Assembly (NCBI GenBank): GCA_030295235.1
Contig: AP026154.1
Location: 402,501-466,500 of the forward strand
Direction of reading: 5' to 3'
From: Fistulifera solaris
Taxonomy: Eukaryota > Bacillariophyta > Bacillariophyceae > Naviculales > Stauroneidaceae
Length of the DNA stretch: 64,000 bases
In this document: positions 16,905-61,848 of the stretch, one piece after another
How positions within the stretch are numbered: the stretch's first letter is position 1
How the letters are laid out: each line of letters starts with the position of its first letter
The notes under the pieces: generated by a model
Database searches by the model: none
The model's input: the letters and a program-made list of their open reading frames with translations, nothing else
What the model was told of the DNA's origin: nothing
Translations under genes and position numbers: made by a program

Positions 16905-19778
16905 TTATTCAAAGTAATGATTGTCCTCCTCTTTCGAGATTTCAATATCCACCTTGTCTTTCGGTCGCAGATCAAGCTCAGTCGCCGTTTCTTCGGAAAT
17001 ATCAGGGTACACGTAGTCATTTCGAAGCTCATCTTGTAGATATGCGTCTTTGAGGAAACAAAGGTCGTTGCTGTCACTCATCTCGCTTTCAGCCTCCGTG
17101 GCTTCAATCGACGGAAGGTAAGAAGCAACACGGAAATGTTCCTGGCGAAGATAGGAATTGAAGAGGAGCGTAACGATGATAAGCGCTGATAACAAGACGA
17201 TGGACGTAAGTGGTTTATAATCAATGAAAGAAACAGGTAGCGATGTATCACTTACGGAACATGAGCGGAGCGCCGATGCTTGCCTGTTTGATACCTAGCA
17301 AACCAGCAATCGTGACTTGGCCAATTACCATACAGGTCTGAATAATTCTGATGAAATTGAGCCAGATCACTCCTCCGCTGTCAGGGTTTGTAGGGTAAAT
17401 GTAAACAAATTGATGGAGGAAGGATGGGTGTAAGACGAAAAAGCAAAGTCCTACAATGTAAGACGTGATGGGAGCAATTACTTGGTAAACCTTGCGAAGA
17501 GAAACAAGTAAGCGAAAGCATCAAAGGGAAAGAGCATGAGCACAAGTAACTTACGAAAATCACCATGAAAAGAAGACATTCACAGAGGCCATGTTGGAAG
17601 CAAATGAGAAAGGCGATGGGTCGGCGAGAGGTCTCAAGCCGTAGTAAGTAGTGTGTTTTTGTTTCTCAGTATAGCGAGGTCCGATGCACTTCCGAAGAAG
17701 CGCCATAACCAAAGCAACAATGCGAAGATTTTCCACGGCAAATCCTACAACGGTCTTGACAAAGACAAGCTGTACGAAGTACGTAGACTTCGCCGGTAGG
17801 GCATTGGCAAGCAAATCGATTCCTGACCACGGGTCGTCAATTATCTCTTTGATCGTTGTCAAAAGACTTCCAGCAACAGCGGACACAAAGAACGTCTGAA
17901 TGATCATGAATGCTGCAAGCTTAGAAAATGTCGAGGCTTGGACAACTGCTGCGGATACTGGGCCTTCCAACATGGAAAGAGCTTCCAGAATAATCGGAAG
18001 CAAAGCATTGAATATAATCACAAAGAGAGGAGCAATCTGTTGAAGGATGGGTTCTAGCGGCGGAAACGCATCGATCGCATCTTCGACCCAACCAAACTGG
18101 CTCTTCAGGCCTTCTACCGAAGAGATAGACGACAAAAAAGCAATTGGAATAGTCCATAAAAGACAAAGAGTCAGGGTAGCTGCAGCGCTGATAAGACTTC
18201 CGATTTGCAAATCAGCGTGTTCGCGTCCCACATTCGCCCAAAAGACGTCAACCGGATCTGGCGCTTGTTTCACTTCCATATTAAAAGGTTCGTGATGATG
18301 GACGATTTGCATTGCAGTACTGGCCCGGTTGAGGCTCGTGAAAGTGACAAAGCCACCGCTGGTGTTCTCCCCATCTGTCGATTCCGTAGTTTCACTTTTC
18401 GTAAATATCTTTCCTTGGTTCGCGAGGTCGTTCACTCGTTCTTCATCGGCGGCGGTGACAGAGAAAGCGTCATTGTCTGCACTTTTCGGCGAGTCAGGAG
18501 TATGATGTTTCGATAATCTGCGATCAGTTAAAGTAGTGCGTTTGCGAATGCCGCGGTTGAGAGCTCGGAGATCAGAGGCGTACCCTAAGAAGACGATGTT
18601 AGAACTGGACTGCGTACAAAAGATGCCGCACAACGAATCTCACCTTCAATCGAATCAACTTCAAAAGTCCCCTTATCCTTGGATTTGACTTTGTGCGTGG
18701 GGCGCTTGCCAGTTGCATCGTTGACGGAAACGGCGTACTCTAAATTCTCCACCGTTTTGGCACGAATTTGCAGGAGCTTTGTCACATTCGGTAGTTGGGC
18801 TTTCACGCGACTTTCGAAAACAGCATCATCGGAGAAGCACTTTTGAAAATACTTTGTCAGATCAGCATTAGTGCGGAATTGTTTCGGAATGTTCCTCACG
18901 TAAACTCTGTAAAGGAGTTAATGGTTAGTACAATAGTTATTTGGTTGACGCACAGGAGTGCATTATTCGCTTGTCACAACAAAAATGAACGTTATTTGCT
19001 TTACGTACGCATAGTTTCTGGGCTTTCTCTGTTTCAAATATTTGTGCCGCATTTCTTTCGCAATCACAGAAGGCAAAGTGAGTGATCATTGACAATTGTA
19101 AAGTGCAGTCCGATTGAAAAGGGTGAATGTAGCTTACCGATGAACCACTTGAAATCGACGTAGATCAGGTACATGGTATATCCGAACAGCAAATAGGAGG
19201 CCAACGCTGTCGCAATGAGTCGCGCCGAACTGGACGGAAGGTTCGCCACGGTGGAAGCTACGATAGCATCGTCAATGTTGGAGGTTTCCACCGACTCATC
19301 CGCCGTGACATACAAAGGAATCAACCAAAGCGCATTCAACATGCCCACCAGACAAAGCTTCGCTCCCATTTCCAAAGTTCGGAGGAAGCAAAGACTATCC
19401 ATTCCACATTGTTCCATGATTTCATCGTCGGTGAATTTTTGTAGCATGAACACCCAAGAAATAAAACCGTATTGGTTCTCTGCCAAAGCAGTCTGTGGCA
19501 ATAGCGTGAGATATGTGGCGACACACAATGACAAAAGATCGAACAAAATCTTTTGTTCAGCTTACCTTCAACTCTTCCTTCTCCGTCCAGCGACGAACCG
19601 TATAAGGCCGCGGATACTTCAATCGAACGAAACAGAAAAGGAGCCACACCACAGCGAATATTGATCCGTACAAGATTGCCGTGTCACGGAGGATGGACTT
19701 GTCATTGTACTGGATTTCATTCGACGTCGAATTGCCTTCCTCCTCGAGAAGACGAGGCATCCATTCTAACTGGCTCAT
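16905..19778 (-). CDS. CSC1/OSCA-like (DUF221) cation channel, copy A
   Basis: Member of the CSC1/OSCA/TMEM63 family, mechanically or osmotically gated cation channels in plants and animals. Exons: 19778-19566, 19492-19138, 19054-19009, 18906-18644, 18584-17555, 17490-17256, 17185-16905, all GT-AG and in phase with the paralogues. Domain order: N-terminal membrane unit (YGSIFAVVWLLFCFVR), then GFISW..ML and SLCFLRTLEMGAKLCLVGML, the cytosolic RRM-like segment starting VYVRNIPKQF, GGFVTF, APDPVDVFWANVG, then the C-terminal membrane domain (FFVSAVAGSLL, DSGGVIWLNFIRIIQ). Relative to copies B-D one intron inside the C-terminal domain is absent. The frame slips one base at an A run (17568-17571 on plus), where paralogues read F-M-I-V-M. 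It is the most divergent of the four. Ion specificity cannot be read from the sequence. Confidence 0.83.
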
Positions 19779-20646
19779 CTTTTACACTCTCTCAGTTCTG
19801 TTGTAAATGAGTTTATTGATCTATTTCATGTCCGATTGATTACTGTTGTGTTTTTATGTTTTGAAAATGGAGCAAAAGATTCTTTTTGGATCATCGAAAA
19901 ATGCAAGGAACGTTGTAAAATACTCCGTCTTGTTTATGTAGCTTGAGTACTCGTGATACCTGTATGTTGTACGAGGGGGATCCACCAATTAGCGATTTTT
20001 GGAAGGCAACAACGCACCGGTACCTGTATTCAAATTTTGTTTACGTCTGTTCAGTAATGATTGTTATGGACCTCTCGCAGTTCGCAGTTTTCGGTTCGAC
20101 AAACACGCGCGCGAAAGGGGCGGCAGACGCGAGACCGCAGCCAGAACCGAGAACACGCGACACGCGACAGAGCGACACACCTCGAACCTCGAATTCCTAA
20201 TTATTTATTACTACGAAAAACTTGTTGGTACTGTTTTCCCTCATTCTATACGAGATGATGATGATTCTTCTCGAAAGTCCTGAGACTGTACTAATTACTT
20301 ACTACCTGGAAAATATTATTTACTCTCTAATGGAAATTTTCACGAGCCATAGTTGAGTCTATACACTCTAGGCGACACCCCTTTAGAATGCCCAGCTCCC
20401 TTGTTTAAGCCCCGTTTCAACCAAAAATACTCCGTAACCCTAAGGATCGTAGATCATAGATCATCGAGTCCTCCCTGGACCCTCTAGACTAGCCACTAGC
20501 CTCGATTATAGCTAGACAATCGTAAATCTTACGGAGTAACGCTTTGTGATCTAATTTTTGAATATAAACGATAAATACAGTGAAAACTCGCATGGTATTG
20601 CTAATCTCCTATCCATTATTCTTGGAGAAAATATGTTTGGCAAGGC
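19779..20646. other. Spacer between CSC1-like copies A and B
   Basis: About 870 bp, upstream of copy A and downstream of copy B. It holds caccggtacctg at 20015-20026 (237 bp before the copy A ATG) and exact copies of the spacer motif tactccgta/tacggagta at 20428-20436 and 20530-20538. No gene seen. Confidence 0.45.
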
Positions 20647-23600
20647 TCATCGAGAAAATAGATTGCCAAGTAGTGAGCGAGCCCCGCGAGATTCAACATC
20701 GTCATCCTCCGCTTTGTTGCTTCGCGAATGTTCACTCGATTGTAAAAGCACTGTTGAAGATGGACTCGCTTCCTCTACGCTTTTTAGACCGAGCAACTCG
20801 AGGCGGCTGTCATCGACATCTTCCGGAAACACTTCTTTGTCGCTGAGCTCCTTTTGAAGATACGCACCCTTCACCAAAGAATCAGCAAAATCATCACCAT
20901 TTTGGATGTCCACTTTCAGGCACTCTTTCGTGGGCAGGTATTCTGCGACTCGGAAGTGCTGTTGCTGGAGGTACGCGTTAAACAATATTGTGCAAATGAT
21001 AAGAGCTAAAGGAAGAAGACGAAACGATAAGAGCGGATTCAAGACACGCGCATACACGAGGACATTTTGAAAACACTTACGGGCCATCAAAGGCGTCGCG
21101 ATACCGGCTTTTTTCAGTCCCATAAGTCCAACCAATGTAAGCTGTGCCACTGTCATGCAAACCATGATGATCCGGATGAAATTAATCCAAATCCTTCCAC
21201 CGCTATCCGGAAGCGTGGGATAAATGTACATGAACTGGTGGAGAAACGCAGGTCGCATGACCATGAAGCAAACACCAAGAAAGAAGCAAGTGAGAGGTGC
21301 TATTGACTGGTATACCTGTGACGAACGAAAGGTGAGAAATCTTGCAAAAAAAAGGAACAAAGGCCTTCGCTTCAGTCTCTTGATTTACCATAAAAATCAT
21401 AAAATAAAGCACCGAGAACTGAGCCATATTCGACGCGTGCTCAAATTCAGAAGGATCGGCAAGAGGCCGGAAAAAAAAGTAGCTCGTCTGTTGTTGTTTT
21501 TTTGTTATACGTGGACCAACGAATTTTCGCACATATGCTAAGACCAGCGGAATGATACGGATATTTTCGAAAGCGAGGCCAGTGACAGTACCAACGAAGG
21601 CGAGCTGAACAAAAAAAGTTGATTGTGCCGGAAGACTGGTTGCGAGGAGGTCAATCGCAGAAAGCGGATCTTCGACGAGCTTTTTGATTTCTTCCAGGAT
21701 CGCTCCGGAAATCGCTGTGACAAAGAACGTTTGAATAATCATAAAAGCGGCAAGCTTACTAAACGTCAACGCCTCTACAACAGATCCCGATACCGGTCCC
21801 TCCCACATGGAAAGCATTTCAAGAATTGCAGGAAGACTAGGCAAGAGTGAGAGGAAAACGTCAAACCATCACCGATTACCGATTACAAGTAGAGCATTCG
21901 GGACCTACTTACAGTGAGTTAAACATGACCACAAGAAGAGGGGCAAGTTGCTGCAATATGGGCTCTAAAGCGGGAAAGGCTTCGACGGCATCCTCGACAA
22001 CCTGAAACTGTTCTTTCAAACCCTCAACTGTTGACAGCGTAGCGAAGAATGCCATTGGAATAGTCCAGAGGAGACATATACCCACAGACGCTGCACGACT
22101 AAGAAGCTTTCCAATCTGAAGCTCTTTGTTCTCACGACCCACGTTGGCCCAAAACACGTCCTGCGGATTTGGAGCCTCCGCGACGGACATCATGAATGGT
22201 GTGTCATGGTGGAGCATCTGCAAAGCTGCATATTTCAAACTGAGAGTTCTAAAGGATACGAAGCCACCGCTGTAATATTCGCCCTCCCTTTCGCCAGCGA
22301 CCAAATTTACTGCGGACCCAACGGCGTTTGTAGCAACTTTAGTAGCACCTTTCGCTGTATTGAGCACGGATCCGACAGCGCCCGAGGCTGTCTTCGAAAC
22401 ACTGGACGGTATCAGTTTGATGCCGTTTCCATGACCGGAATGTGATCCATTCGCCACCATCGAATTATCAATTTTCTCGTCGGAGTAGCTTAATTTGTTG
22501 GATTGTTTGCGCTCATCTGATTCAGAGAGTAGTTTGTCGGTTTCTGTTAATTCATACCTAGAGGGCTTCGATAGCCCGAAAATTCGTCGGGCGGATGGAT
22601 ATAATTCGTCTAACGCGTCCGTCGATGCATTCCCCAAAAGGATGTCTTCCATGACCGTAATACGTACCGAGATGTCGGAATTCAATTCAGCTAGCTCGCG
22701 CGCGAATGCTTTCAACAAGAAAACAAAACGAACGCATCGATGAGCATACGATTTGTCATAGCATATCAATGAAAAGAAGGGAGTAGCACGTACCGTCTAC
22801 CGCATTGACACGATCTCCCGTCATAGCTCCACCCAAAACAGGGATGACCCCGACAGCGTCACTGACTCCAGGAATGCCTCCCACGAGACCCTTCTTGAGT
22901 GTGGGTGCTTTTCCATCCCGCTCTTCAATAGCCAGAGCATTCTCAAGCTTGGCTACCACATTTTCGCGTTTTGTTACCAGACTCGACAGCTTATTGGCAA
23001 TCAAACGAACTTTGGCATCCACAACTGGATCGCCACCGAAACAGTGGTGAAAGAATTCTTCCAACTTTTGGTTGGATCGTATCTCTGATGGAATGTTGCT
23101 CACGTAGACACTGATTGTTGCAAAAGACCGGCCGTGAGTATGATGGCAAGGCAGGTATATGAAATTATGAGACATGGATCACTTACGTGTAATTACAGGG
23201 CCTCGGCTTGCGAAGGAATTTGTGACGCATTTCTATCACCAAGAGAAGTAAGTAAGAGCGCCGCCTTTGTACACTTGCCCATGCTTCAACGTACCGATAA
23301 ACCACTCAAACTCTTGCAAAATCAAATACATGGTATACCCAAACGAAATATAGGCCGCCAAGACGGTCGCCACCAACCGCGCCGATCCGGACGGAACATG
23401 CGACACGGTAATTTGCACCACCCAATCGGTGATGCGATCCGTTTCTTTCGAAGACTCGGCCGTCGCGTAGATTGGTATCAGCCACAAGGCATTGAACATG
23501 CCCACCATACATAGTTTTTGTCCCATCGCCAGCGTCCGCAGAAAAACAAACCGCATCAAGTCCACAATGTTCGGCAATTTCGTCGTCATGAAAGGTAAAG

Positions 23601-23976: not shown

Positions 23977-24796
23977 ATTGGATCCTTTCAATGCTTGCTT
24001 TGTTGTTTTGTCATGGATCTCCTTCACCTTTTTGAAATAATCAACAGGATCATTCCTCAGTTTTTTTTTTACTTTTTGACAGGCCTGCTTCATTCTTCTA
24101 CAGAAGTATTATTATTATTTTGGTTCTCACTCGGGGAGTGCGATTTGCGGAGCATCGTTCTTCGAAGAAGCAGCCCGGCGTATTCAACGGAAAACGAGGG
24201 TTACATTCCTGTCACAATTGCTAAAAGTACCTGTACACAGTACATGAAGGAAGGGCATTAGGCTATTTTCATTCCAGTAAGGTTACTGGCCTTCCGTAAT
24301 TCTCTCTCTCAACAGTCTCGGAACAGTCGGCCTGAAGAGAAACTTCGAAGAAGATACTCTGTTGCCGATTGCGCAATTGTGGAGAAAATGATGCTGGAAA
24401 GGATTTCGAGTGCTGGGATGCTTGCTGGCTCCTGGGCTGGTAAATACGCAAGGTTAGCCCGTCTACTACATACAATCCTGTCTCACAACTGAACTGAGGC
24501 TGCTATCGATGACATTGTTCGTTCAGCGAGCTTGGTTACGAAAAAATAATTGCCGTAATCACAATGCTACCTTCTATGGTGTTTGAACATTATTTACATT
24601 CTACAAAGAATGCCTCGATTTTTGTATAAAATCCTTGCGGATCGTTGTCTGTTAGTATGCTACGGAGTATAATCTAAAGTGTAGGCGACCTTTTTCCACG
24701 ACTGCTTTTCAGTCATGAGTCATGACTTTTCGCTGTTTTTTCCTACTACAAGTAGTTCCATTCACTTCCTGGCACTTGAAGCGTTTATTCATTTGT
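23977..24796. promoter_or_regulatory. Divergent spacer, copy B / GT90 gene
   Basis: Spacer of about 820 bp. It contains agtacctgtacacagtac at 24227-24244, 250 bp before the copy B ATG, and tacggagta at 24661-24669, about 130 bp before the GT90 start. No other gene seen. Confidence 0.4.
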
Positions 24797-26117
24797 ATGT
24801 ACGATTCTGTTTCTTCCTATGCATGTCTTTTTCTTCGTAAAGGTCTCATCCTTGGAATAGTGTTCGCGCTGGTGCTACGAATTCCCTTCCTTTTTGTTTC
24901 ACGAGACTTCTCGCGCACAACGAACGACGACCTTACTTCCTCCGACTCTACTAGTAGTAGCCTTCTCAACCACCACCCGTATTTTTTTTCCTCGTTGGGG
25001 AATCGAAGGGATTGTTTTCGATGACTGGATGTCCTTTGTACAAGGACTCGGGAATGGTACGGCATCGACCGTTCTTTCTCCGAAAACACGAAACCGGTTT
25101 CCCGAAATCGTATACGTTGTCGACGCGTACGGCGTTTATGTCAGTTCCACGCTCGTGCAACGCAGTACGTTGCAAAGAACGTTTCAGCATCGTCAAACAC
25201 CGACGGAACAATTGTTTACGGTAGCTTGGCAACTACTGAAGGAAACCAACTCGACACGGTGGAGGCTGCTACAAGAAGCCAAGGAGGGATTTCCGTTCTT
25301 GACGTGGTACGCCGATTGCAAATCGTGTCATTACCACAATTGGAACAATACGTACTCCATTCCTTTATTGACGACGTGTGCTCCTGTTTTGTGTCAATAC
25401 GCCTTTCCTATTCCCAATTATCAAAACGTTTTGAGTGCGCAATCGAATTGGGAACAACTCCAGGCTTCGTATCGAACGCACTATTCGTCGCAGCAACGAC
25501 AATTGTTATGGCGCGGTTCCTTGTCGGCACCCAATGAACATTTTAATAGTACACGATGGCGTGTCGTGGTACACGCCCAAAACGATCCACGGGTGGATGC
25601 CGGATTCGTCTCCATCGGGCACATCAATGCCGGCTTCCAGTGGCAAAACTTGGGTGCTGGCATGTTGCGACCCGCCGTGACACCCATGTCGGACTTTCAA
25701 CGGTATTTCGCCATACTCGATATGGACGGTAATGCCTGGAGTAGTCGATTCGGTGAATTGTTGTGTTACAACTCGATCGTGGTAAAAGTGGAACCCGCCT
25801 ATGTTGAGTCAATCAATCGAGACTTGATTCCCTGGAAACATTACATTCCCATGGCCAGTAATTTATCCGATTGGGACAGTGTCTTGGACTTTTTATTCGA
25901 TTCACGCAACGATGCGAAAATACAAAGGATTATACAAAACGCGAATCACTGGTGTCGTCAACAGTTGACAATGCCCGCGCTGGCGGCTCGCCTGTTGGAT
26001 GTTTGGGAAAATTATTTATGGCACATGGAGAAAGGCAGTCCTCAGTGGCAAGCAAAATGGTCCGAGTACAAGGCATCTATATTTAATTCCGATTTAAATA
26101 TGGTCAAATTGAATTAA
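24797..26117 (+). CDS. GT90 (CAP10-domain) glycosyltransferase, type II membrane protein
   Basis: CAP10/GT90 enzymes are O-glucosyl- or xylosyltransferases of the secretory pathway. Starting at the ATG at 24797 (another in-frame ATG at 24722), the protein has a membrane anchor (GLILGIVFALVLRIPFLFV) and a Ser/Thr/Asp stem. An eight-T run at 24982-24989 then shifts frame; the downstream frame continues with WGIEGIVFDDWMSFV and the full catalytic domain. Family signals: LLWRGSLSAPNE, YFAILDMDGNAWSSRFGELL (the hallmark D-G-x-A-W-S-x-R block), VKVEPAYVESINRDLIPWKHYIP and NLSDWDSVLDFL. The total span is one base more than a multiple of three, so one extra T would account for it. The length, about 439 aa, is usual for the family. 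Acceptor substrate unknown. Confidence 0.83.
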
Positions 26118-26278
26118 CATATTTTACCTCGGCAAGGCATAACTGCGTCCAGTAGCGAGTGATGGGTCCATTTCTAAGTAACGGATCGCCGCGACCGTCA
26201 AAAAGATGTTGCGAGCACGTCAATAACCTGTAATCTCAATTTAAAATAAATTTAGTATCCAGAATTATCTTACTCTTT

Positions 26279-29120
26279 TCACATCTTCGAGGCCGCCGCC
26301 TTCAATTCATCCGACATGGCCACGGTTGCCGCTTTTTCCACAAAGTCGGGCAATTCGTCAAAATTCAAATAACGGTAGGTGTCAGCGGCCGTGGCGTTGA
26401 CTTCGCTCATGTAGGCCATGTATTCATCGACGGTGGGCAGTTTGCCTTCAATACTGGCAATCGCCGCAAGTTCGGCACTGGCCAAGAAAACGTTCGCTCC
26501 TTGTCCCAAACGATTGGGAAAGTTTCGGGTACTAGTCGAGACAGTCGTGCAGCCAGGAGCCACGCGAGCTTGATTGCCCATGCACAACGAGCATCCTGGC
26601 ATCTCCGTGCGAGCACCGGCCGAACCATAAATGCTGTAATAACCTTCCTCGATCAATTGCGCTTCGTCCATCTTGGTAGGAGGCGCCACCCAAAGACGAG
26701 TGGGAAGAACCTTTGACTTTTTTGACCGCATGGGCGTTCAACAATTTACCCGCGGCGCGGAAATGTCCAATGTTGGTCATGCAAGATCCAATGAACACTT
26801 CGTCGATGGGTGTTCCGGCCACTTCCGAAAGAAGAGCCGAAGCATCCGGATCGTTCGGCAAAGCCAACACGGGTTCTTTCAGCTCGTTCAAATCAATCTC
26901 AATAACTTGAGCATAGCTGGCCTTCTTATCGGGTTTCATCAAGACAGGGTTGGCGACCCACTTTTCCATAGCTTTGATGCGGCGCTCCAATGTACGGGCA
27001 TCGCCGTAACCTTCCGAAATCATCCATTTGAGCATAACAATATTCGAGTTAAGATACTCAATAATGGGTTCTTCGTTCAACTGAATCGTGCATCCAGCTG
27101 CAGAACGCTCGGCCGATGCGTCCGACAGTTCGAATGCCTGTTCACATTTCAAGTCCGGAAGACCTTCAATTTCCAAAACACGACCCGAGAAGACATTCTT
27201 CTTTCCCTTCTTCTCCGTCGTCAACAGTCCTTGCTTCAAAGCAGTGTACGGGATGGCCTGGACCAAATCACGCAAGGTAATGCCCGGCTGCATCTCTCCG
27301 TGAAAGCGAACCAACACCGATTCGGGCATATCCAACGGCATGATGCCGGTCGCCGCCGCAAAAGCCACTAAACCACTTCCCGCCGGGAAGGAGATACCAA
27401 TGGGGAAACGCGTATGCGAGTCGCCACCGGTTCCGACCGTGTCAGGCAAAAGCATGCGATTCAACCACGAATGAATGATCCCATCCCCCGGTCGGAGCGA
27501 AACACCACCACGCGTGCGAATAAAGTCCGGTAATGTGTGATGGGTCACTACATCGACGGGTTTCGGGTACGCGGCCGTGTGACAAAAAGACTGCATCACC
27601 AAATCGGCCGAAAATCCCAAACACGCCAAACCCCGCAATTCATCGCGCGTCATCGGTCCCGTCGTATCTTGCGAACCGACACTGGTCATGCGGGGCTCAC
27701 AATACTGTCCAGGGACGACACCTTGGCCTTCGGGAAGTCCACACGCGGCCCCGACCATCTTTTGGGCCAAAGTGAAGCCTTCCACATTAGAATCGGGTTG
27801 CACCGGCATGCGGAAGACATCGTCGACGGCCGATCCTCTTCCCAATGCCTCACGCGCCTTGGCCGTCAATCCACGTCCAATAATGAGAGGAATACGACCT
27901 CCGGCACGCACTTCATCTAACAGGACTTGCGTTTTGAGTTCAAATGTCGTAATCGTTTTACCCGTCGCATGATTCTTGACGACACCTTCGTAGGGGTACA
28001 CATCAATGACGTCTCCCATGTGCAAATTGGAAACATCCAACTCAATGGGGAGAGCACCGGAGTCTTCCATCGTATTAAAGAAAATTGGAGCAATCTTTCC
28101 GCCCAAACAAAGACTGCCGGTTCGCAGATTGGGCACGTACGGAATGTCTTCTCCAAAGTACCACAAGACAGAATTGGTCGCACTCTTGCGCGACGATCCC
28201 GTCCCCACGACATCACCGACGTACGCCAAGGGAAAACCGGTGTCTTGCTGTAGTTTCCGAATCTGGGGGATGGGACCAATGGAACCATCCGCTACTGGTT
28301 CGATGCCATCCCGGGCATTCTTCAGCATACTTGCGGCATGCAAGGGAATATCGGGACGACTCCAAGCATCTTGGGCCGGACTCAGATCATCAGTATTGGT
28401 TTCACCCGTCACCTTGAAGACTGTGACAGTGTATTTTTCGGGCACGTCTGGTTTGCTCAAAAACCATTCGGCATTCGCCCACGACTCCAAGACAGTCGTC
28501 GCTGGTTTGCAGCCATTCTCGTGCAATTCAATGACATCGTGCAAGGCATCAAAGACGAGCAATGTATGCGACAATTGCTGTGCGGCTGTGTCGGCAACTT
28601 CTTTATCTTGTAGCAATTCAATCAAGGTAGCGACATTGTATCCACCTTGCATCGTTCCCAACCATTCAACAGCTTGTTTGCGACTCACGAGAGAACACGA
28701 TTCGGTACCTTTCGCAATCGCACTCAACCACGTGGCCTTGACGTACGCGGCTTCATCAACTCCGGGTGGAACCCGATGTACTAAAAGCTCCAACATTTCT
28801 TGTTTTTCGGCTTCAGTGGCGTCGTTACCTTGCAATTCTTGAATGAGAGTCGAAACTTGTTCGGCCGACAAAGGTTTCGGAGCAATCCCCAAACCGTTGG
28901 CTTCCTTCAAGCGTTCCGTAACATGGGCATGATATTCAGGAAGTAATACGGAAGCTTCAGCAGGGAAAGAACGACTATAATGGCGAGTTTGTTGTACAGC
29001 AGTCCTTTTCGGAGATAAGGCAACAACACGACGATGGGCAGTTTGCAAATTACGACGGGCGTGACTCGCTAACGTCCACGAAACGAGGCTTCGTCGGACG
29101 GCTTGGCGGGATAAGAACAT
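26279..29120 (-). CDS. Mitochondrial aconitate hydratase, bacterial AcnB type
   Basis: Converts citrate to isocitrate in the TCA cycle using a [4Fe-4S] cluster. The ATG at 29120 begins an Arg/Ser/Ala-rich, acid-poor leader of about 55 residues ([17 protein letters not shown]) typical of mitochondrial import. The order is that of AcnB, not of the usual eukaryotic aconitase: N-terminal HEAT-like domain ([18 protein letters not shown]), swivel domain ([21 protein letters not shown]), then the catalytic core with [29 protein letters not shown] and cluster cysteines in [17 protein letters not shown] and [14 protein letters not shown]. The frame slips by one base at a six-base A run (26718-26723), between NAHAVKK and [15 protein letters not shown]; beyond it the normal end of the protein is read to 26279. 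Total length about 946 aa equals AcnB plus a presequence. An essential, fully conserved enzyme makes a consensus error the likelier cause of the break. Confidence 0.93.
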
Positions 29121-29893
29121 GATAATATATAGATATGTGATTGAATGGTTGTAAAAAGGATTTGCTATAAGGACGATTCTCCTTTTTCAACAAAGACGGG
29201 TTTTGAGTCCTTCGCTTTTCGGAAGGATCACACAAACAAAAACGACGGCAAGGAAAGGCATTTGATAGATCCGAAAGCGAAAGATCCCTTTTGGAGTATG
29301 GCACAGAACAGTATACGACACTACGAACGTCGACGCGACAGCACAGATGACCCCCAACGATTGCCGGTATTGAAATTTACTTCTAGAACTATAGGAAGTC
29401 ATCGAAAGAACAGCACTGCGACATTTACCTTTCGTCGGAGAAAACAGAACTTCCGCGGCCAGCAAAATCGGAAGGCAAAGAATGCCCGACGTACGACGTA
29501 CGAGCCAATTGTCAGTCACGAGACAGGCGACGGTTGACTCCCGTGTCCCGTGATACAAGCTCGGATTGGATCTCTGCTCCCTCCCTCCTCCTTCACGAGA
29601 GAGAGAAAGTCCATTCATATGGAATAAACAACCATAATAGCATAATACAAAAACGGCGCCGTGTGTCTCTGAAAACATAAATTGAGAAACAGCCACGTAG
29701 AAGTAACAAATCGAATAGATGAAAAAAGTCACATCTAGCAACGTTTAGAGAAAAGACGGACACATTCTAAACTATAGGGATCCCAATCGCTTTCCATTCA
29801 TTCCTACGAATGAAATTAACGGTATCTAAAGAGCGACAAACGGTGAGAATCAAACACACATTTCACACAAAAACGACGACACAAAAACGACAC
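29121..29893. other. Spacer between PsbU and aconitase
   Basis: About 770 bp between the PsbU stop and the aconitase start, both on minus. No gene or repeat that I can support; a few acgtacg strings near 29490 lack the GTAC-element form seen elsewhere. Confidence 0.4.
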
Positions 29894-30504: not shown

Positions 30505-30538
<34 letters not shown>

Positions 30539-31283: not shown

Positions 31284-34200
31284 ATGCTGCTGTTCGATGA
31301 TGATAATGATGATTCATTACGATGGCTCACACAAGTCCATTCAACAACGCCTAACAATAGCACGAAGACGGCCATTCTACAAGACTCGGCTATTTTAAGG
31401 GATATGGGAATTGTTTATGGTTCATTACTCGTCATTGTTTTCTTTGTCTTTTGTTATGTTCGCATAACATTTCCACGACCCTATACCATTCGGAAATGGA
31501 AGGAGGAATTCCAGGTACGTAAAGTTGCCTTTTCTCATTTCTTTTACAAAATTGTATTATACATCCAATTTCTTTTTTCTTGCTTCGGTTGCAGAGTCCG
31601 TTAGCACAAAATCAATTCGGATTCGTTTCGTGGATATGGATGCTTTTTCGATTTCAGGATGACGAACTGGCCGAACATTGTGGTCTCGATGCCGTGTGTT
31701 TTCTGCGTACCTTGGCCATGGGGAAGAAGTTGTGTATGGTCGGCATGTTCAATGCTTTGTGGTTGGTACCAATTTATGCGACAGCCGAATCTTCGCCCGA
31801 GACAGACAAAATAACCGATTGGGTCGTTCGCATCACTCTATCACATGTTCCGCCCGGATCGGCGCGGTTGGTGGCAACCGTCTTGGCGGCCTATGTTTCG
31901 TTTGGGTATACCATGTATTTGATTGTACAAGAGTTTGAGTGGTTTATCGGTACGAAAACGGAATGTATAAACTAGAGTATTAGACAATTATCTAACATTG
32001 ATTGCTCTTTGACAGGGATGCGTCACAAATTTCTGCGCAAGCCGAGACCCCGCAATTACACGTAAGTTCTCGTGTGAGCGGCACAGTGCGAACCCGACTT
32101 CATGGTCTCATCTTTTCTCTGCAGAGTATACGTCAGCAATATCCCACCCGAGATACGATCCAACCAGAAGCTGGAATCTTTTTTTCGCCACTGTTTCAAT
32201 GGAGATCCGGTGGTGGACGCCCGAATCCGTGTGGTCGCGAACAAATTGTCCGGTCTGGTCACCAAACGAGATCATGTGATCGCCCAACTGGAACATGCCT
32301 TGGCGGTGGAAGACAAAACTGGAACGGCACCCACGCGTAACACGGGTCTCGTGGGGGTATTCCAGGAGTGGGCAGCGCGGCTGGGGCGATTCCGGTTCTG
32401 GGTAGCGCCGTTGCGGGAGAGCGTGTCAATTCGATTGAATGTGAGTCGTGGCGCATGTGAAAGAATGCTTACAAAACGTTGACTCAATTGTTGTATGATT
32501 GCTGCGAAATATCCAGTCTTTTCCCGTGAGCTTGCTGAACTGAATGCTGATATCTCCTATCGGATATTGCTGGTTGAGACCATGCTAAGTGAAACCGCAG
32601 CAGCGGAATCGTTGGAAGAATTCAATCCTTCTTCGAAACGATCGCAAGGACCATTCGATACCGAAGAGAACGGAACAGAATCGGACGATTTAATCACTCC
32701 AGAGACACGGGCCGAAGAAAAGATGGAAAGCGATTCCATAGACACACCTCACAGTTTTGACCCACTTTCTCGACCGGAGGGACCAGAGGAAGAACAATCA
32801 ACAGAAAATCGATCATATTCTCAAAAGACATCGAACAATAATTCGCTTCATGGTACATCTGCTCAATCTGTTCACAATGACAGTTCGAGAAGTGCAATGT
32901 CATTAGCTTCCGGCGCTACGAAAAAGGCCACAAAAGCAGTTGGTACAGTTATTGGTAATGCTAAAGGCGCCTCCAAGCTCGCCACACACGCTGTCGGATC
33001 AGCTGTAAAAATGGTTGCTGGTGCTAAAGATTATGAGCACTACTACGGAGGCTTTGTCTCCTTCAGGACACTCAGCTTAAAGTACGCAGCCTTGCAGATG
33101 CTCCACCACGGGACACCGTCCTTCATGACTGTATCTGAAGCTCCTGATCCTCAAGATGTGTTTTGGGCAAACGTAGGACGTGAATACAAGGAGCTTCAAC
33201 TGGGGCAGCTACTGAGTCGCGCGGCTTCGGTGGCAATTTGTTTTCTTTGGACTTTTCCAATGACTATCATTGCCTCGCTCTCCACAGTGGAGGGTCTGAA
33301 AAGGCAGTTTGATATTGTCGAGGATGCAATTGAAGCATTCCCAGCTTTGGAGCCCATCCTTCAGCAACTGGCTCCCTTGTTGATTGTTTTGTCAAACGTT
33401 GTGTAAGTACGGATTCTTCTTGCCGTTCTCTTTTGGATCTTGTATCTGATTCTGTGATGCAGTTTGCGGCAAATATTAAAAGCTCTCTCGATGTGGGAAG
33501 GACCTGTCTCAGGATCTGTTGTTGAGGCGTTGACGTTCACTAAGCTCGCCACCTTTATGATCATCCAGACATTCTTTGTGACCGCTATTTCGGGATCGCT
33601 ACTGGAGGAGATCAAGCAAATTGCAGAAGATCCGCTGTCGATTGTCGACCGTCTCGCTAGAACGCTTCCCGCACAATCTACATTCTTCATTCAGCTTGCC
33701 TTTGTCGGTACCGTGACCGACCTTGCCTTTGAAAACATCCGTATTATTCCGCTTATACAAGCATACTTGCGGAAATTTGTGGGACCGCGCGTTACAGAAA
33801 AGGAACGAGGCAAAACTTTCCTAGGCCTCCGGCCTTTGGCTGATCCTCTGTACTTCCAGTTTTCATTGAACATGTCACAGTTCTCAATTCTATATTTCAT
33901 GATTGTTATGGTAAGCGTCGCGACCGCTGCGTCTGCTGGTTGTCAAGACCAAACTCTCAATGTTCTTTCGTGCAGGTTTACCAGACAATAGCACCGTTAA
34001 CTTGCTACTTTTTGTGCTTTTGTTTCATTCTATTGCGGCCGGCCTTTCTGCATCAGTTTATTTACATCTATCCTTCGCTCCCAGACAGTGGCGGAAAAAT
34101 ATGGATCCGATTCATTCGAATCATTCAGATTTGTATGATAGTGGCGCAACTCACACTTGTGGGACTCATGGGACTGAAGAAAGCCGGAATCGCGACTCCT

Positions 34201-34550
34201 CTCATGGCTCGTAAGTATTTCATGTGAAACATGCACCGCACGATGGTTCGCGTTTCTTACACTGGAATATTTCTCTCTTTCATCCCGCAGCTCTCATACT
34301 ATTCACGATTCTGTTTAATGCATACTTACGACAAGAGCACTTCCGAGTTGCAGAGTACCTTCCGACGAAAGAGTGCCTTAAGGTCGACCTCCGCAATGGT
34401 GACGATAACTTTGCCATTTCGCTGGTCCGGGGCGCCTATTTGCAACCGGAGCTCCGTGAGAAGGAGTTGTTTCCTGAAAATGCCGATCATAGTCGTTTGG
34501 TCGCACTTGGCTTAAAACAGAACCAAGTGGGCTCCTCATCGTTCGTATAA
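31284..34550 (+). CDS. CSC1/OSCA-like (DUF221) cation channel, copy C
   Basis: Eight exons: 31284-31514, 31595-31949, 32016-32061, 32125-32440, 32517-33402, 33463-33910, 33976-34210, 34291-34550. Family blocks: YGSLLVIVFFVFCYVRITFP, FGFVSWIWMLFRF, DAVCFLRTLAMGKKLCMVGM, GMRHKFLRKPRPRNYT, VYVSNIPPEIRSNQKLESFF, GGFVSFRTLSLKYAALQML, DPQDVFWANVGREYKELQ, GSLLEEIKQIAEDP, DSGGKIWIRFIRIIQICMIV, AYLRQEHFRVAEYLPTKECL. It resembles copy B most, in sequence and intron sites. A run of five G (32353-32357) leaves the cytosolic domain one base short of the paralogues' GGIPGV; the other frame then carries on to the next donor. From 33979 to 34501 it is identical to copy D. Confidence 0.86.
33979..34501 (+). 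repeat. 523-bp block identical to copy D (first member)
   Basis: Identical by eye to 37455-37977 (offset 3476). It spans the penultimate exon of the channel gene, the 80-bp intron and most of the last exon. The upstream exons of C and D differ at many sites, and so do the bases just outside the block, so it is a sharply bounded conversion tract or partial duplication. Confidence 0.9.
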
Positions 34551-34810: not shown

Positions 34811-37800
34811 ATGAAACAACGTTGGCTAGAATGCTTTGAAACGATGGCACAGAACATTAATGGACCAGATACCTTTCAGCATACTTACCGCGATGCTTCT
34901 GTTCTCCGTGACATGGCAACTATCTACGGATCGTTGCTTGTCGTTGCATTCTTTTGTTCTGTACTGTGCGCATTGCGTTTCCACGCCCATACACAATTCG
35001 TCGATGGACGAACAAGGAAGATCTGAAGGTATGAATCTTCTGACCGTGACTGCTTTGTTGCTTGCAAAAAATATTCGCATCGTACTTACTTTGTGCTTTA
35101 TTCTGCGCGTCAGAACTCTCTCGCGGAAACTCAGTTTGGACGCTTTTCCTGGATTTGGATGTTGTTTACGTTTGATGATGACGATATTGCCGACTCGTGT
35201 GGTTTTGATGCTCTTTGCTTTCTCAGGACGCTCTGGATGGGAATGAAAGTCTGCCTCCTTGGAATGTTGAACTCTCTATGGTTGATTCCTGTTTATGCAA
35301 CATCCGAATCATCTCAGGAGACGGACAAGATCACAGACTGGGTCGTCCGTATCACAGTGTCGCATGTTCCGCCCGGATCTCCACGACTTATCGCTACTGT
35401 CTTGTCTGCTTATATTTGTTTTGGGTACATAATGTACTTAATTGTGCAAGAGTTTGAGTGGTTCATAGGTAAGATTGATGGTGCTGCGGGGAGAGTGAAG
35501 GAGAGTGATGAGTTGGCTATCAAGCAAAGGGTGAGCGTCTTACCACTTGTGCGGTTTTGTCGTTTTCAGCTATGCGTCACAAATTTCTTCAAAAGCCGAG
35601 GCCGTCTAGCTACACGTGAGTTGGTTGGCTATTTATGAAGGAAGCCTTTTATTTTATCCACTCACTTGTTGTTTTTCCTCTCATCTTGTCTCTCATAACA
35701 GGGTCTACGTCAACAACATCCCGACAGAAATACGATCGAACGAGAAACTTGAAGAATTCTTTGGTCACTGCTTTAATGGGGATCCAGTGGTGGGTGTACA
35801 AGTTCGAGTAATGGCCTATAAGCTACTTGATCTCGTGACAAAACGTGCAAATACGGTAATAGCATTGGAAAATGCACTAGCAGTCAAGGACTCAGGTGGA
35901 ACTTCACCTACACGCACAACCGGTACAATTGGTAATATCGCTGGAGTCGGAGCTGTTGTAGCAGCTATCCCTGTTGTAGGAAATGCGATTGTGGGTGAGC
36001 GACTGGACGCGATCGAAGGTAAGCTTGTGTTCCTCTTTCGCCGGGTCTAAATTATCAATGTTAAAACTGACTCGTAGCAGCCCTATCGCACGAGCTTGGT
36101 TGTCTCAACGCTGAAATTTCAAATCGAATTTCTACAACGGAGAGCATCATTTTTCGGCATGAACCGAGAGAATTCTCATCAGAACCGGTTTCATCGACTC
36201 GAGATGGTCAAGAGCATATAAGGGCGACAGAGTCTGACAGATTGCTTTCTCGACAAAACGGAAAATCATCTGATCGCCTCTATTCTGAGCAGTTAACGGG
36301 GAAAACGTTCTTTTCATACATCTGGGCACTCAATGCAACCCGATGGGCCGGAGAGACCAAAGCCGTTGGCGTTAGACGTTTCCAATAAAGCCGCTAGCGC
36401 TGTTGGATTCGTAATTGAAAGCGCGAAAGGTGCATCTGAACTAGCCAGCCATGCTGTTAGATCAGCTGGAAATATGATAGGAGTAGTAGCCGCAGGTCGC
36501 GATGGCGAGTACTATAATGGCGGATTTGTGTCGTTTAGAACGCTAAGTTTGAAGTATGCTGCATTGCAGATGCTTCACCACGATATTCCTTTCGTAATGT
36601 CGGTCTCTGAGGCTCCTGGCCCTGAAGACGTGTTTTGGACAAACGTTGGACGCGAACACGAAGACCTTCAACTAGGGAAACTCTTTAGCCGCACAGCTTC
36701 TGTTGCTATTTGTTTTCTTTGGACAATCCCAATCGCATTCATTGCGTCGTTATCTAGTGTGGAGTCCCTAAAAAGGCAATTCGAATTTGTCGAGAAAGCA
36801 ATTGACGCATTCCCAGCTTTGGAACCCATTCTTCAGCAGCTGGCTCCGCTACTTCTTGTTCTGTCAAACGTTATGTAAGTTCAGTCGATGTTCGATCCTT
36901 TGTCCATACTGTGCCTGACCCCTTCCTTAGTCTTCGACAAATTTTAAGTGCCCTTTCAATGTGGGGAGGGACCTGTATCGGGTTCCATAGTCGAAGCCTT
37001 GACGTTTACTAAGCTGGCTGCATTTCTGATTATTCAAACCTTTTTCGTGTCTGCCATCTCCGGATCTCTGTTGAAAGAAATCAAAAAAATAATTGAAGAT
37101 CCGTTATCGACCATTGATCTTCTCGCCAACAGTCTTCCTGCACAATCCACATTCTTTGTTCAGCTTGCCTTCGTCAGTACAACAACTGGTCTCGTTTTCG
37201 AAACTCTGCGCATTGTTCCGCTGGTACAAGCGTATTTTCGAAAGTTCTTGGGGCCACGTTCAACCGAAAAGCAGCGCCAGAAACCATTTCTTGGTCTTCG
37301 GCCTCTGTCAAATCCAGCGCATTTTCAATATTCTTTGAATGTGGCTCAATTCTCTATCTTAAACTTTATGATTGTGATGGTAAGGTCCGAGATCCATGTG
37401 GTGGCCTAATCGGAACCCTAAGAAGCTTACCATTGTCTCGAACATACGCAGGTGTACCAGACAATAGCACCGTTAACTTGCTACTTTTTGTGCTTTTGTT
37501 TCATTCTATTGCGGCCGGCCTTTCTGCATCAGTTTATTTACATCTATCCTTCGCTCCCAGACAGTGGCGGAAAAATATGGATCCGATTCATTCGAATCAT
37601 TCAGATTTGTATGATAGTGGCGCAACTCACACTTGTGGGACTCATGGGACTGAAGAAAGCCGGAATCGCGACTCCTCTCATGGCTCGTAAGTATTTCATG
37701 TGAAACATGCACCGCACGATGGTTCGCGTTTCTTACACTGGAATATTTCTCTCTTTCATCCCGCAGCTCTCATACTATTCACGATTCTGTTTAATGCATA

Positions 37801-38032
37801 CTTACGACAAGAGCACTTCCGAGTTGCAGAGTACCTTCCGACGAAAGAGTGCCTTAAGGTCGACCTCCGCAATGGTGACGATAACTTTGCCATTTCGCTG
37901 GTCCGGGGCGCCTATTTGCAACCGGAGCTCCGTGAGAAGGAGTTGTTTCCTGAAAATGCCGATCATAGTCGTTTGGTGTCGCTCGGTCTAAAACCAAATG
38001 ATGAAGAGTCGTTGACAAACCTATTAATGTAG
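34811..38032 (+). CDS. CSC1/OSCA-like (DUF221) cation channel, copy D
   Basis: Tandem to copy C, 260 bp downstream. Exons: 34811-35028, 35114-35468, 35570-35615, 35702-36018, about 36069-36875, about 36931-37379, 37452-37686, 37767-38032. Family blocks: FGRFSWIWMLFTF, CFLRTLWMGMKVCLLGML, AMRHKFLQKPRPSSYT, VYVNNIPTEIRSNEKLEEFF, GGFVSFRTLSLKYAALQML, PGPEDVFWTNVGREHEDLQ, GSLLKEIKKIIEDP, VYQTIAPLTCYFL. Three one-base frame slips are visible: a T run near 34952-34958, the variable linker near 36305-36340, and a four-G run at 36963-36966 where copies B and C read MWEGPVSGS. Everything between is well conserved at protein level, so the copy is either very recently damaged or affected by consensus error. 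Its last 523 coding and intron bases equal those of copy C; only the final roughly 18 residues differ. Confidence 0.82.
37455..37977 (+). repeat. 523-bp block identical to copy C (second member)
   Basis: Partner of 33979-34501. The left edge falls three bases inside the exon after the CAG acceptor; the right edge lies 18 codons before the stop. Confidence 0.9.
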
Positions 38033-40257: not shown

Positions 40258-41071
40258 ATGAGTCACAACAACCGACGTCGAATGAACTCGTTTGCAGAAG
40301 AAGAACCACTGATGGTGGAATTGACCCGCAATTACTGGACGTTTCGTTACAACAGCAAATCGCGAAGTCATCCTCATCCTCCTCCTCCCCCCTCATCATC
40401 ATCCTTCATTCCTTTCGTCTTATAAATATCTTGGAATAACATTGGCTGTTATTCTTATGGGAATTCGAATATCTTGGAATTATCCACATCGACTAGTCTC
40501 GCAGAATACCGACAACGAGATGATTTGGGATTACAATGCCTATCATCTCAATGTTTCTTCCTCCTTGCTCATGGCCCAACAAGAGGACATTGAAACCGAT
40601 CAGACGAGTTTGCCCATTCGTGCTTACGCACGACAACTAGGAATTAATTATGTTCGATTTCGAAATGGTCAGCAACTTCAGGAATTGTTGCAATTACCCT
40701 ACCAAGTGATTGCCTTTTTTCCGGCGAATGCGGTTCTGATACATTTAGATCGTTCCTTGCAAGAATTGTTACCCACAAAGGATCAAGTCATGGCAGTCGG
40801 AAAGACGACCGGATTCTTTGCTTTGAATTTACGATATTCCGACACCCTGCGGGCGCTGGTGCAACGACAACATTCCCTTTCCTCTCTGCGTTCGTTTCTG
40901 TCGTCACAGGTCACCCAGGTTTCGTACTTACCGGAACAAGCCGATGGCTTTGTCGGTACCAATCGTCTCTTACAATGTATACCGCGTCAAATGCCCGAAT
41001 ACGAAATGATCGTTTCGACGACCGTGGCTTCGGTGTGTTATCGCTATTATCCCAAATGTGATGTATTGTAA
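40258..41071 (+). CDS. Small type II membrane protein, family unknown
   Basis: About 270 aa if one base is discounted. The ATG at 40258 opens a basic, acidic-cluster N-terminus (SHNNRRRMNSFAEEEPLMVE) and a HPHPPPPP stretch. At a six-C run (40387-40392) the frame slips, and the next frame continues with a membrane span (YLGITLAVILMGIRISW) and a soluble domain to 41071. The downstream frame has no ATG near its start, which supports the join. The lumenal domain has two Asn-x-Ser sites, an LIRAYARQLGINYVRF-like block and three Cys near the end (QCIPRQ, VCYRY, KCDV). The layout is that of a Golgi type II enzyme, but I recognise no catalytic motif. Confidence 0.6.
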
Positions 41072-48159: not shown

Positions 48160-51100
48160 ATGAATCCAAGCAAATCGACTGTCGTCAAGAATCCTTACGC
48201 GAAAGCCAGCAATCCTTACGTGAAAGCCAACAATCCTTCCACGAAGTCATCCATCAATCATGATACAAATAAAGCACCTCTCTCAACTTCTTCTTCTTCT
48301 TCACTGGCTACTGCTGTGAAAAAATCAGAGGTTTTCTCCGAAAGCGGTACCACCGAAAGCGAAAGAAACGATGAAACCGGAAGTACCGAAGAATCCAAAT
48401 GCAGCCATCTCCAAGCCCTCGGAGCCGCGCACATTCGACAAAAAGAATCCACCATCTCTGAAAATGAAGCTCAAAAAAGAGATTGAAAACCTCAAGAAAC
48501 AACAGCAACGTCAAAAGAGCGACTGGAAGCAGAGCGGCATCGACGTAAATTGGAGAAACAGAAGCGAAAGCAGGAAGAAGAGCAGTTGAAGCAGCTAGAG
48601 GAACGGCGAAAGCAGGAAGAAGGAACAAATCAGCAAAAAAAGCAACCACATCCCACACCATCCTCAAAAAGTACAGTCAATGCTCATGTTACGCCATCGC
48701 CTCAGTTTGCGCCGTCCAAGGAAAGCTACGTCAACATTCAATCAAATCATATGGGCACCCAGAATCCACCCGAGACTCCTTTTGTGAATTCAAAAGTCGC
48801 AAATTACTCTCTAGAACACGCCCAATTGGATGCTCTGGTAAAGCGGGAGAGCCACGGATTGTCGAATCATCCCTTTTCTGCGCCTTCGATACATTCTCAT
48901 AAAACAGCCCCGTTTGTCGCACCCAATGCTGTAACGTATCATCCCACGACAACCCTTGCCGCTCTACCTGAAATACTTTCGCGTCAAAAACACCCGGTGA
49001 TGGCACATCCCTTGTTGAACGAACCATCATCTGTCTCAAAAACAAGCTACAGCAACAATGTGTTCGCATTGACATCAAGCAGCAATGTGATTCCACAATT
49101 ATTGCAACCAGCTCCAAATCCATTTGCGCACCCGATGCCTGACGCAGCGGGAGTGTATACGAATCCCTACGCGTTCTCTTCGAATGCCTGGATGCCCACG
49201 TGGCAGCAAGCCGTGTATCAGCTTCAGCAACAACAGCTGCTTCAGCAGCAGCCCTTTACTACACCAACGCCCTCTCTTCCGCAAATATCTTGACTGCTCC
49301 TATGAATCCCTGGGCCATGACCATGGCTGCGGCTTCGATGGGCCAGGCGTTGCCACAGGCACAGTCCGTCCGACGTACTCAGAAAAGAAGACTCTCTCGC
49401 CGCAGGATTGGCGCCTCATTTCGACTCCTTGTCGATCTCCCTCACCGTTTGCCCGCACTCATGAAATCCTGCCGTATGCGATCGTCATGGTCAAGCATGC
49501 CCAGGATCACAAAGGATTTGGTGTGACCTTGAAGAAGGTTGCCGAATGTGCTCTCGTCGGTTTTGATGAGTGGCCGACGCACGAATTGGTCCCCAGCGAG
49601 ACAACGAAAGAAGTCAAAGCGGAAACAATAAATACCGGCATTTCTGCTTCTGACGTGAATGAAATCGAAGGAGTCAAAAAAGCCGAAAACGAAGATCAAC
49701 AGGTCAATCAGAGCGGTTCATCAGAGATGATCGAGGCAGCAAACGTAGAGGATGACCGGTCCGTAGTCTTTGATACATGCTCGAAAGTTAAGCAAAACGA
49801 TGCCACGATGGCGGCCAGTTCTTCGGCCACCGTCTTAGATAGCCCTAATGTAGCGTCCTCATTGGTACCCAACGAAAGCGACGCAAAAGTTGCGACTCCT
49901 CTAGCGAGTACTTCGGTCTTGGATACAAGTCAGGCAGTAGCGGGTGAAGATCCAAATATGGCCGAAACCTCTTGCTGTCCGTTTAAAACAGTGGAGATCA
50001 ACTCGACTAATGAAGCTTCTGATATGCCTCAAAGCTCATCATCTATTGTGCCCGTCGAAAGAGTTAGTGGGTCTTCTGAACTTTCCGCTTCTGTAGGACG
50101 TCAATCGATCGCGGATCAAGAAAAAATGAATGATGAACCTCACCAGCAGCCAAAGATACTTGGGGAAAACGTTTCCCCTACGTCGTCTGAATCGTCGCCC
50201 TTATTGACAACCAGTGAGGTCAAAGGTGCGACTCAAGTATCTACCGCAGCAGAGGTTTTGCACAGCAAAGACCGACAACGCAAACGTCGGCGTCTTTTCT
50301 TCTGTGTCATGGAGGTTTTGAATGCGGCAGAGCAGAACCAGCGATCCCATCCTTCGAAACATTCAAATATGCACCTGGAAGAAGGAGATATCATCCTCAC
50401 AATTCAGGGCGAACAAACAGGTCGAAAGTCGTTTGACGATGCTGTCAAGATGTTTGCTTCCGTTACTGCTGTCGGTGACGACGGATTTATTCAGTGTGTG
50501 GTTACTGTGGCTCGCCGAAAGAAAGTAGCCCCGCCTCCAGCCCGCCTTCCAAAATGCATCCCGTCGATGATGAAGAACGGTTCGTCATCTCCTCTTACTG
50601 AACTTGGTTACAAAGCACTGGCCGCAGCCATGATTGAGGTTGCGAGAAATCAAAACCGGCTTTTGGGCCATACCATCTGCTCAAATTCGATGAGTGAGTT
50701 GTTTCAAGCTTCTTCGTTGCTATCTACTCATACTGCGGATTACTTGCTTTCTTCTTGGGGGTCTATATTTGAGAGAATTAAGCGTGAAATGAGACGAAGA
50801 GCTGCTGAACATTGGGCATCGAAATGGCAACTTGAAACAGCGGAAATTAAGGCCTCGACCAAATCGCCCTTGTCGGACGCTCAAAGAAGTTCACGTAGAG
50901 CACGACCGCGACCGGCGAAGGGCTGCCGCTGCGGCAGTCAGGAACACGAATACGTCAACGACCGCAATTGCCCACTGTACAGCAACCTCCGTCGTCTAAA
51001 GAAGGATGACTCCGCGGAAGAAGTTGACACGAAGTCTAATCGCCCTCAGATTAAAGGTCCAAAAGATTTGAATGCCGTTGAGAAAGCTTTTAAGGATAGA

Positions 51101-52184: not shown

Positions 52185-52238
52185 TTCTAATAACAAATTA
52201 GATTTCTGCGGCTACTTACTGCTCGCCAGCTTCCTAGG

Positions 52239-59905: not shown

Positions 59906-60896
59906 TACGATAGAAGAGTGTCCAAAACGGTAGCACTCGTCAACGGCAATCTAATCAGCCTACTCTGCCTGGTTCTCTCTCTCTCTCTCTCTCCATCACC
60001 TATTCTTTCTTGACTCGGCGGTCTTCTCTTCGTTTCGCATTACGACACATGCAACTTTCTTCAGCACACACTCGTATTAGTTGTCCCTCGATAGATTCTC
60101 TATGGACATAACGATTTTATTTTAGAAAGTCAAAGGAAAGTGCGTTGCCAATGAATTTGGGGTGCCTATTGTGATGACGACTGGATTTAAGTCATGAATT
60201 CTTATTTTCCAGTTAACCTCCGTCCGTCCTGCTCCCTGGGTAAAGCCACTTCTGTCGTCATAACAATACAAATACCTACTAGGTGACGTGACAAAGACTG
60301 CTTTTCAGTCATGAAGAATCAAGATATTTTCGAGTCAAGCTGCTTCCTTAGTTCATTCTGCTAGCTTAGAACGCTTCATTTGTCTTTAATTCAGTTTTTT
60401 TTTCAACCTACAGCATCAGTGATGAACGCTTCGACGAGCTGCACATCGAATGCGTGACCATGACGACGCCTGAAAGGTGCGGGAAATTGTGTACTTCCAC
60501 GTAAGCCCCCGTAGAGAAATGTACCAAGCAGAGGTGCGTTCCCGTGTCTCCGTTTTTTTCTGACTACATACCTGATAGATCGAGCACATCCTCTCGTCGT
60601 AACGCTGCTGCACGGAAAAAGCGTCTCCGTGAGTCGTGAGAATAATCGAGTCACAAGCATCAAAATAAAATTCTCAACGGTCGATCTGCTGGACATTTAT
60701 TTCTTGCGAATGAAGAATAATGCGAATAAGCAATGACTACTGAGACACATTCACATACATCATTATCCTCTAGGATTTTGATCGAAAGAAAGAAAACGAG
60801 TCAGTCGTCACGTCACTCATTTCGACAGCACACCCACTTTTACTGACTACCTTATCATCATCCGATAGCAGAGCCACCTAAAACAAAAAAAAAATC
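59906..60896. other. Spacer with CT repeat and second dispersed-repeat copy
   Basis: About 990 bp. It has a (CT)n tract at about 59973-59993 and the second copy of the 73-bp repeat at 60480-60552. No gene supported. Confidence 0.45.
60480..60552. repeat. Dispersed 73-bp repeat, copy 2
   Basis: Partner of 10318-10390, same orientation, about 89% identical, ungapped. The flanks differ, although a few bases before it (ctgaa near 60470) are also shared. Confidence 0.7.
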
Positions 60897-60957
60897 ATGT
60901 CGAGATCTTCGAAATCGAAAAACAAACGAGCCAAGAAAAAGCAGGAAGTAGTTGCCC

Positions 60958-60992
<35 letters not shown>

Positions 60993-61848
60993 GAAGAAGA
61001 AGAGGACGAGGTGGTGGTTGAAACTGTCGAAACCATTGTCGAAACGACCATTACGACAGTCGCAGAGGGAGAAACGAGCCTTGAGCCGAAAGACGAAGAA
61101 GTCAACAACAAAGAAGAAGATGATAACGAGAAGGAAGTTGGAAGGAACAATACTAATAAAGAAGACGAAGCATCTTCTTCGAAGAAACGCAGCGCCGAGG
61201 AAATGGACGGTTTTGATTTGGGAAAGATGGTGGGACAGATTGTCAATACCGTAGGGTCCTTTTTTCAACAGTTTTGGGGAAGCCAACCGGCGGAACCTAC
61301 CGAAGGACCACCCTCGATCGATCAGATTATCCCAATGATGCTGTTGGGCGAGGGAATGTTGGAATCGGCCTTGTGGGAAGTGGTTAGCAAGGAAGGAACT
61401 GTGAAAGAATATAAGAAAGATTTAGCCTTCGAAACGCGACACGGCGACACCTCTAACGTGCACAGTGTCCGATTGCAGCTGTACCATGGCTTACAAAATC
61501 CCGAGGAGGAGGAGGAGGAGGCCTGGCCCACTCCCCCTCCCGTCGGTCCAGACCATTGTATTGGTATTGCCTGACCCATCTTTGGTGGAAAAATGGATTC
61601 GTTGGATTCGTCAACCGTTCCCAAAAGTGGCGATTGTGCTATTGTTGACCGGTGCGCCACCGGAGAGTGAATGGCACTGCAGTGACATCCAATCATGGCA
61701 TTGTTTGTCGTCGTCGGAAAGTCCCCATCACGTGTCTTCGATTGATGATTTGTTGTATTCGTTGGTGGAGCGCAGTTTCGTGGACGACAAGCCATCGGCG
61801 AAGCGTAGAAAAATGGATCCTATTACTGTAGCAGAGAGTCAAGAATAA
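60897..61848 (+). CDS. PolyQ/acidic low-complexity protein
   Basis: About 316 aa if one base is discounted. From the ATG at 60897: a basic start (SRSSKSKNKRAKKKQ), an uninterrupted polyQ tract encoded by CAA repeats, then a Glu/Val-rich acidic region, then an ordered part with MDGFDLGKMVGQIVNTVGSF and an EMLESALWEVV-like helix. A poly-Glu tract (GAG repeats) precedes a five-C run at 61533-61537, where the frame slips. The second frame continues with QTIVLVLPDPSLVEKWIRWI and VAIVLLLTGAPP, which look like core beta strands, to 61848. The first frame alone would end at 61574 shortly after the run. Family unknown; basic termini suggest a nuclear protein. Confidence 0.6.
60958..60992 (+). repeat. 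CAA trinucleotide repeat (polyQ)
   Basis: Eleven to twelve near-perfect CAA units coding for glutamine inside the preceding gene, followed directly by GAA/GAG units coding for Glu. Likely variable in length. Confidence 0.85.

Follow-up and report, generated by a model that had tools for sequence, protein, structure and literature searches.

Conserved genes in a 64,000-nucleotide stretch of the Fistulifera solaris genome (hereafter the window) break by a single base as printed, and conserved protein sequence continues in another frame; the question is whether these genes are broken in the alga or in its assembly. The window is bases 402501–466500 of contig C46 (586,196 bases), one of 61 contigs in an assembly that totals 51.7 Mb. 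Judging by species, size and contig number, this is probably the Nanopore assembly Fsolaris_ONT_v03; PMC12159174 cites Fsolaris_ONT_v03reference as the assembly and lists F. solaris with 62 sequences and 52 Mbp. The species is described as an allodiploid with homoeologous gene copies and 42 pairs of homoeologous chromosomes (PMC5935921). The colinear partner (homoeolog) of the window is contig C45, with about 83–92% DNA identity in blocks longer than 800 bases. As described below, C45 prints the locus twice, in arms 1 and 2; window and arm 2 are separated by 6,491 mismatches and 621 gaps by blastn scoring.

Frame breaks printed in the window

The cited places were aligned to the C45 arms (to arm 2 alone for two of the ten), and the window and arm 2 were translated in three frames. 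The breaks are indeed printed as the original prediction had it, since the conserved protein shifts frame within a few bases at all ten places, which fall in nine genes. Its claim of both insertions and deletions also holds, with longer as well as shorter runs present, and most sites do lie at homopolymers; at 17568 and 32353, however, the base is missing beside a run. The sites, and one further slip that had not been listed before, are as follows.

17568..17571, minus strand: CSC1-like gene 1; missing base adjoining a run, immediately ahead of a splice donor; both C45 arms align with a 1-base gap; arm 2 continuous
23542..23546, minus strand: CSC1-like gene 2; A run with another length in the homoeolog; arm 2 continuous
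24982..24989, plus strand: GT90 gene; T8 separating an N-terminal segment from the GT90 part; C45 arm 2 continuous
26718..26723, minus strand: AcnB aconitase; three printed copies with three different run lengths
32353..32357, plus strand: CSC1-like gene 3; missing base between two G runs
34940..34970 (near 34952), plus strand: CSC1-like gene 4; slip common to the window and both C45 arms
36963..36966, plus strand: CSC1-like gene 4, second slip; G run whose length differs in the homoeolog
40387..40392, plus strand: 40.3-kb gene; C6 within a segment missing from the homoeolog
48513..48516, plus strand: putative "PDZ-like" gene; A run
61533..61537, plus strand (set by the homoeolog's open frame; a minus-strand frame is open too): putative "polyQ" gene; C5
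52900..52910 (at 52905), minus strand: additional slip, supported by the frame-tracking screen, translations and phase test

The alignment of the window with arm 2 has a 1-base gap no more than 8 bases from the site at eight of the ten cited sites; site 40387 sits in a 31-base length difference, and site 34952 has no length difference. By three-frame translation arm 2 is a single continuous frame at nine of the ten sites, and the slip near 34952 is, among those cited, the one uncontradicted by the homoeolog. Pfam matches include RSN1_7TM on the piece 17560–18639 of CSC1-like gene 1 and on the pieces 36297–36878 and 36948–37409 that flank the slip at 36963..36966, as well as Glyco_transf_90 on the frame downstream of the T8 slip; the tested pieces of the "PDZ-like" (48487–49293) and "polyQ" genes had no Pfam match. 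We also note two neighboring glycosyltransferase 61 genes at 12445–14004 and 15069–16673.

A homoeologous locus apparently printed twice

Bases 1–42500 of C45 are the reverse complement of bases 75216–117824 (loci L017–L028), an inverted duplication at the contig end that is 99.6% identical. Across 42,638 aligned columns (42.6 kb) the two arms differ at 3 mismatches and 133 gap openings; two 10-kb stretches within the arms read N, so that the arms' inner ends fall outside this comparison. By blastn scoring the counts are 4 mismatches and 132 gaps, the reverse of the balance between the window and arm 2, which are true homoeologs. The 12.5 kb between the N stretches contains no long inverted match. 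Nearly all of the indels (131 of 133) are single-letter and 109 are one base long, and 84 lie in runs of at least 5 bases in the longer copy, of which arm 2 holds 138. In 103 of the 131 single-letter indels it is arm 1 that has fewer bases. Coding sequence is affected as well, with 39 indels in 18.0 kb of coding columns, none of them a multiple of three.

Because mismatches are nearly absent, we take the arms to represent one locus. One locus that is printed twice and disagrees with itself almost solely in run length therefore indicates consensus error: this is the pattern expected from run-length error and unexpected from biological change. The duplication itself arose either through a foldback in the assembly or as a real and very recent duplication; whole-genome amplification has been reported to leave artificial palindromes in long reads (PMC6218980). 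With two printings of the sequence, the assembly carries its own measure of consensus error, at about 3 indels per kb from arm to arm.

The AcnB aconitase

The gene affected at 26718..26723 was thought to be an essential single-copy enzyme.

26282..29186, minus strand: AcnB-type aconitase gene, split across two frames; TIGR00117 match

Its two adjacent frames match TIGR00117 at positions 2–720 and 717–843 of 844, that is, the whole profile between them, which is more than chance would give. The gene is not single-copy, however. A genome-wide PF00330 search placed AcnB loci on C46 and C45 and gave another pair of matches on C19/C20, and the exons of the C19 member, on which this was tested, score best as isopropylmalate dehydratase large subunit. 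Aconitase is thus present as one locus per subgenome, with the C45 locus printed twice. All three printed copies are broken: the window has 1 slip, arm 2 at least 1 elsewhere, and arm 1 at least 4, including one where the window has its own. Both arms change frame once more at the extreme end of the match, and these counts leave that change out. Taken literally, the assembly describes an alga without any intact AcnB aconitase. As a separate observation, the bacterial AcnB type is the sole aconitase found in this diatom by the PF00330 search, the C19/C20 pair having the appearance of isopropylmalate dehydratase.

Extent of the frame breaks

In the phase test, each gap of 1–2 bases between homoeologs was asked whose frame the codon-position pattern follows. 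The test is conservative, calling 2 of the 10 cited sites. Between the window and arm 2 (314 gaps tested) it found the window broken at 3 and arm 2 at 11, and between the window and arm 1 (251 gaps tested) it found arm 1 broken at 25 and the window at 2. These last two window calls, at 18621 and 19513, had no counterpart in the comparison with arm 2 and are left out of the slip count. By this test C45 fares worse than the window and so is an imperfect yardstick. Among other homoeologous pairs, 2 of 25 gaps were broken between C38 and C39 (both in C38) and 2 of 17 between C7 and C8, which carry dde (one in each); no slips were called among 24 gaps between C19 and C20. The fault thus extends beyond the window, with slips in two of the three other homoeologous pairs sampled.

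A frame-tracking screen, which charges every frame change and penalizes stops, was also applied to the window and arm 2. Coding gaps comprised 13 of length 1, 17 of length 3, 6 or 12 and none of length 2, 4 or 5; all 13 frame-breaking indels are therefore exactly one base long. The number of shifts depends on the setting, being 13 at the first and 7, 5 and 4 at three others. Run at three penalties, this screen, which itself penalizes stops, accepted none in frame across 26,799 coding columns, and the codon-position pattern persists on either side of called slips. The screen recovers 52905 and two of the ten cited sites; because it overlooks most cited slips and its output varies with the settings, each site is judged here on the direct translations. 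Two earlier screens are not used here. A tblastn frame-change screen was dropped after shadow frames gave far too many calls (at least 85 small ones between the window and arm 2), and a first gap-based screen, whose alignments had many small gaps, was replaced.

Published apt and dde oligonucleotides

Oligonucleotides published for gene editing in F. solaris (PMC13276009) offer an independent check. The published target in the adenine phosphoribosyltransferase gene (apt) has one exact match on C38 and one on C39. Over apt and dde together, 15 of 16 distinct tested oligos are exact where expected, as are 19 of 21 placements, and these include an A5 and a G6 stretch. The published target of guide gDDE2 contains T6, and the same paper reports that, of 27 clones treated with gDDE1 plus gDDE2, 14 carried large deletions in one homoeolog and 16 in the other. 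The assembly prints the gDDE2 site as T5, not T6, in both dde homoeologs, and in both the conserved protein shifts frame exactly there. An independent sequence with another run length is thus seen for dde, a gene outside the cited window genes.

The slip common to window and homoeolog

At the slip near 34952 all three printings (window, arm 1 and arm 2) are equally long, and the conserved frames upstream and downstream of it differ in the window and in arm 2. Because the three printings agree in length, homoeology cannot settle this slip. The T5 printed for T6 in both dde homoeologs implies that a systematic error hitting both homoeologs has likely happened once already, and the sequence around 34952 is nearly identical across the three printings, which fits the same cause. 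We therefore favor a systematic error repeated in both homoeologs as the probable origin of this slip. It could instead be real, a tolerated or programmed frameshift retained since before the subgenomes met, but this seems improbable.

In the same region, the window segments 33979–34501 and 37455–37977, which lie in two tandem CSC1-like genes, share 523 identical bases including an intron; over 1 kb of this region the paralogs on C45 show about 73% identity. The match in the window reflects either a recent gene-conversion event or misassignment of reads between the copies.

Consensus error and its alternatives

We consider it very likely, at a probability of roughly 95%, that the slips are residual run-length errors (at homopolymers and adjacent bases) in the consensus of the Nanopore F. 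solaris assembly. A base-caller or consensus step would miscount short runs, a miscount inside an exon would move the printed frame by one base, and the gene in the cell would stay intact; base calling is presumably the raw cause. Long-read consensus error had been put forward as the simplest reading, and it is supported by the self-disagreement of C45, by the continuous frame of arm 2 at nine of the ten sites and by the dde T6 that is printed short. Against it stand the identity of the 34952 site in three printings, the frames that the phase test finds broken in C45 itself, the lack of slips among the 24 gaps of C19/C20, the 19 of 21 oligo placements that are exact, the sensitivity of the frame-tracking screen to its settings, and the two cited sites at which the base is lost next to a run.

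If the slips instead marked true pseudogenes, one homoeolog of each pair would be decaying after allopolyploidy; an allodiploid could tolerate such one-copy loss (PMC5935921), and the intact frame of the other homoeolog at nine of the ten cited sites is what decay of this kind would leave. Decaying genes are, however, a poor match for the codon-position conservation that flanks called slips on either side, for the lack of accepted stops (in a screen that penalizes them) and for frame-breaking indels that are all exactly one base long; moreover, the C45 locus differs between its own two printings, and pseudogenization would make every printed AcnB copy dead, so that we think this very unlikely. 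A place for unrecognized splicing, with the slip sites as intron edges or tiny introns, might be sought in the GT-AG introns that the CSC1-like genes have by eye and in the nearness of 17568 to a donor, but a difference of one base cannot be an intron and arm 2 reads through nine of the ten sites in one continuous frame; it is scarcely credible. In Euplotes-type ciliates, programmed frameshifting lets conserved protein resume in another frame. The genes studied here resemble that system in this one feature, with conservation resuming at once in the next frame, and the 34952 slip common to both homoeologs could also be read as favoring programmed ribosomal frameshifting or some other read-through decoding feature. 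Unlike the Euplotes type, however, the slips have no sequence motif in common, as they fall at runs of each of the four bases and at places outside runs, and they go in both directions, to longer and shorter; arm 2 needs no slip at nine of the ten sites, and the two printings of the C45 locus are at odds at 133 gap openings. We regard decoding of this type as extremely unlikely.

Consensus error of the sort preferred here is an artifact of an already known kind (PMC12007338): homopolymer indel errors of long-read assemblies are reported to fragment genes in the work on Kastor (PMC12007338) and Homopolish (PMC8011154). As in those reports, short indels at runs split genes into frame-shifted pieces and some errors lie off runs; the evidence differs, coming here from a doubly printed locus and homoeologs rather than from reads. 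In a literature search for earlier reports of slips in this assembly, Fistulifera solaris was not named among the matches listed. Gene models from this assembly are liable to splitting and shortening, and counts of genes, pseudogenes and lost homoeologs drawn from it may be inflated. For annotators the slips are a useful warning; their biological interest is low.

Repeats in the window

No tRNA or Rfam family was found within the window at gathering score. A 19.6-kb genome search returned short repeats only and so was not used for homology. At 60465–60565 the window contains a repeat of about 80 bases, without an Rfam match at gathering score, that occurs in at least 34 other places in the genome at 86–97% identity. 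A second, short intergenic repeat of about 50–80 bases lies at 24665–24750 and has copies on many contigs.
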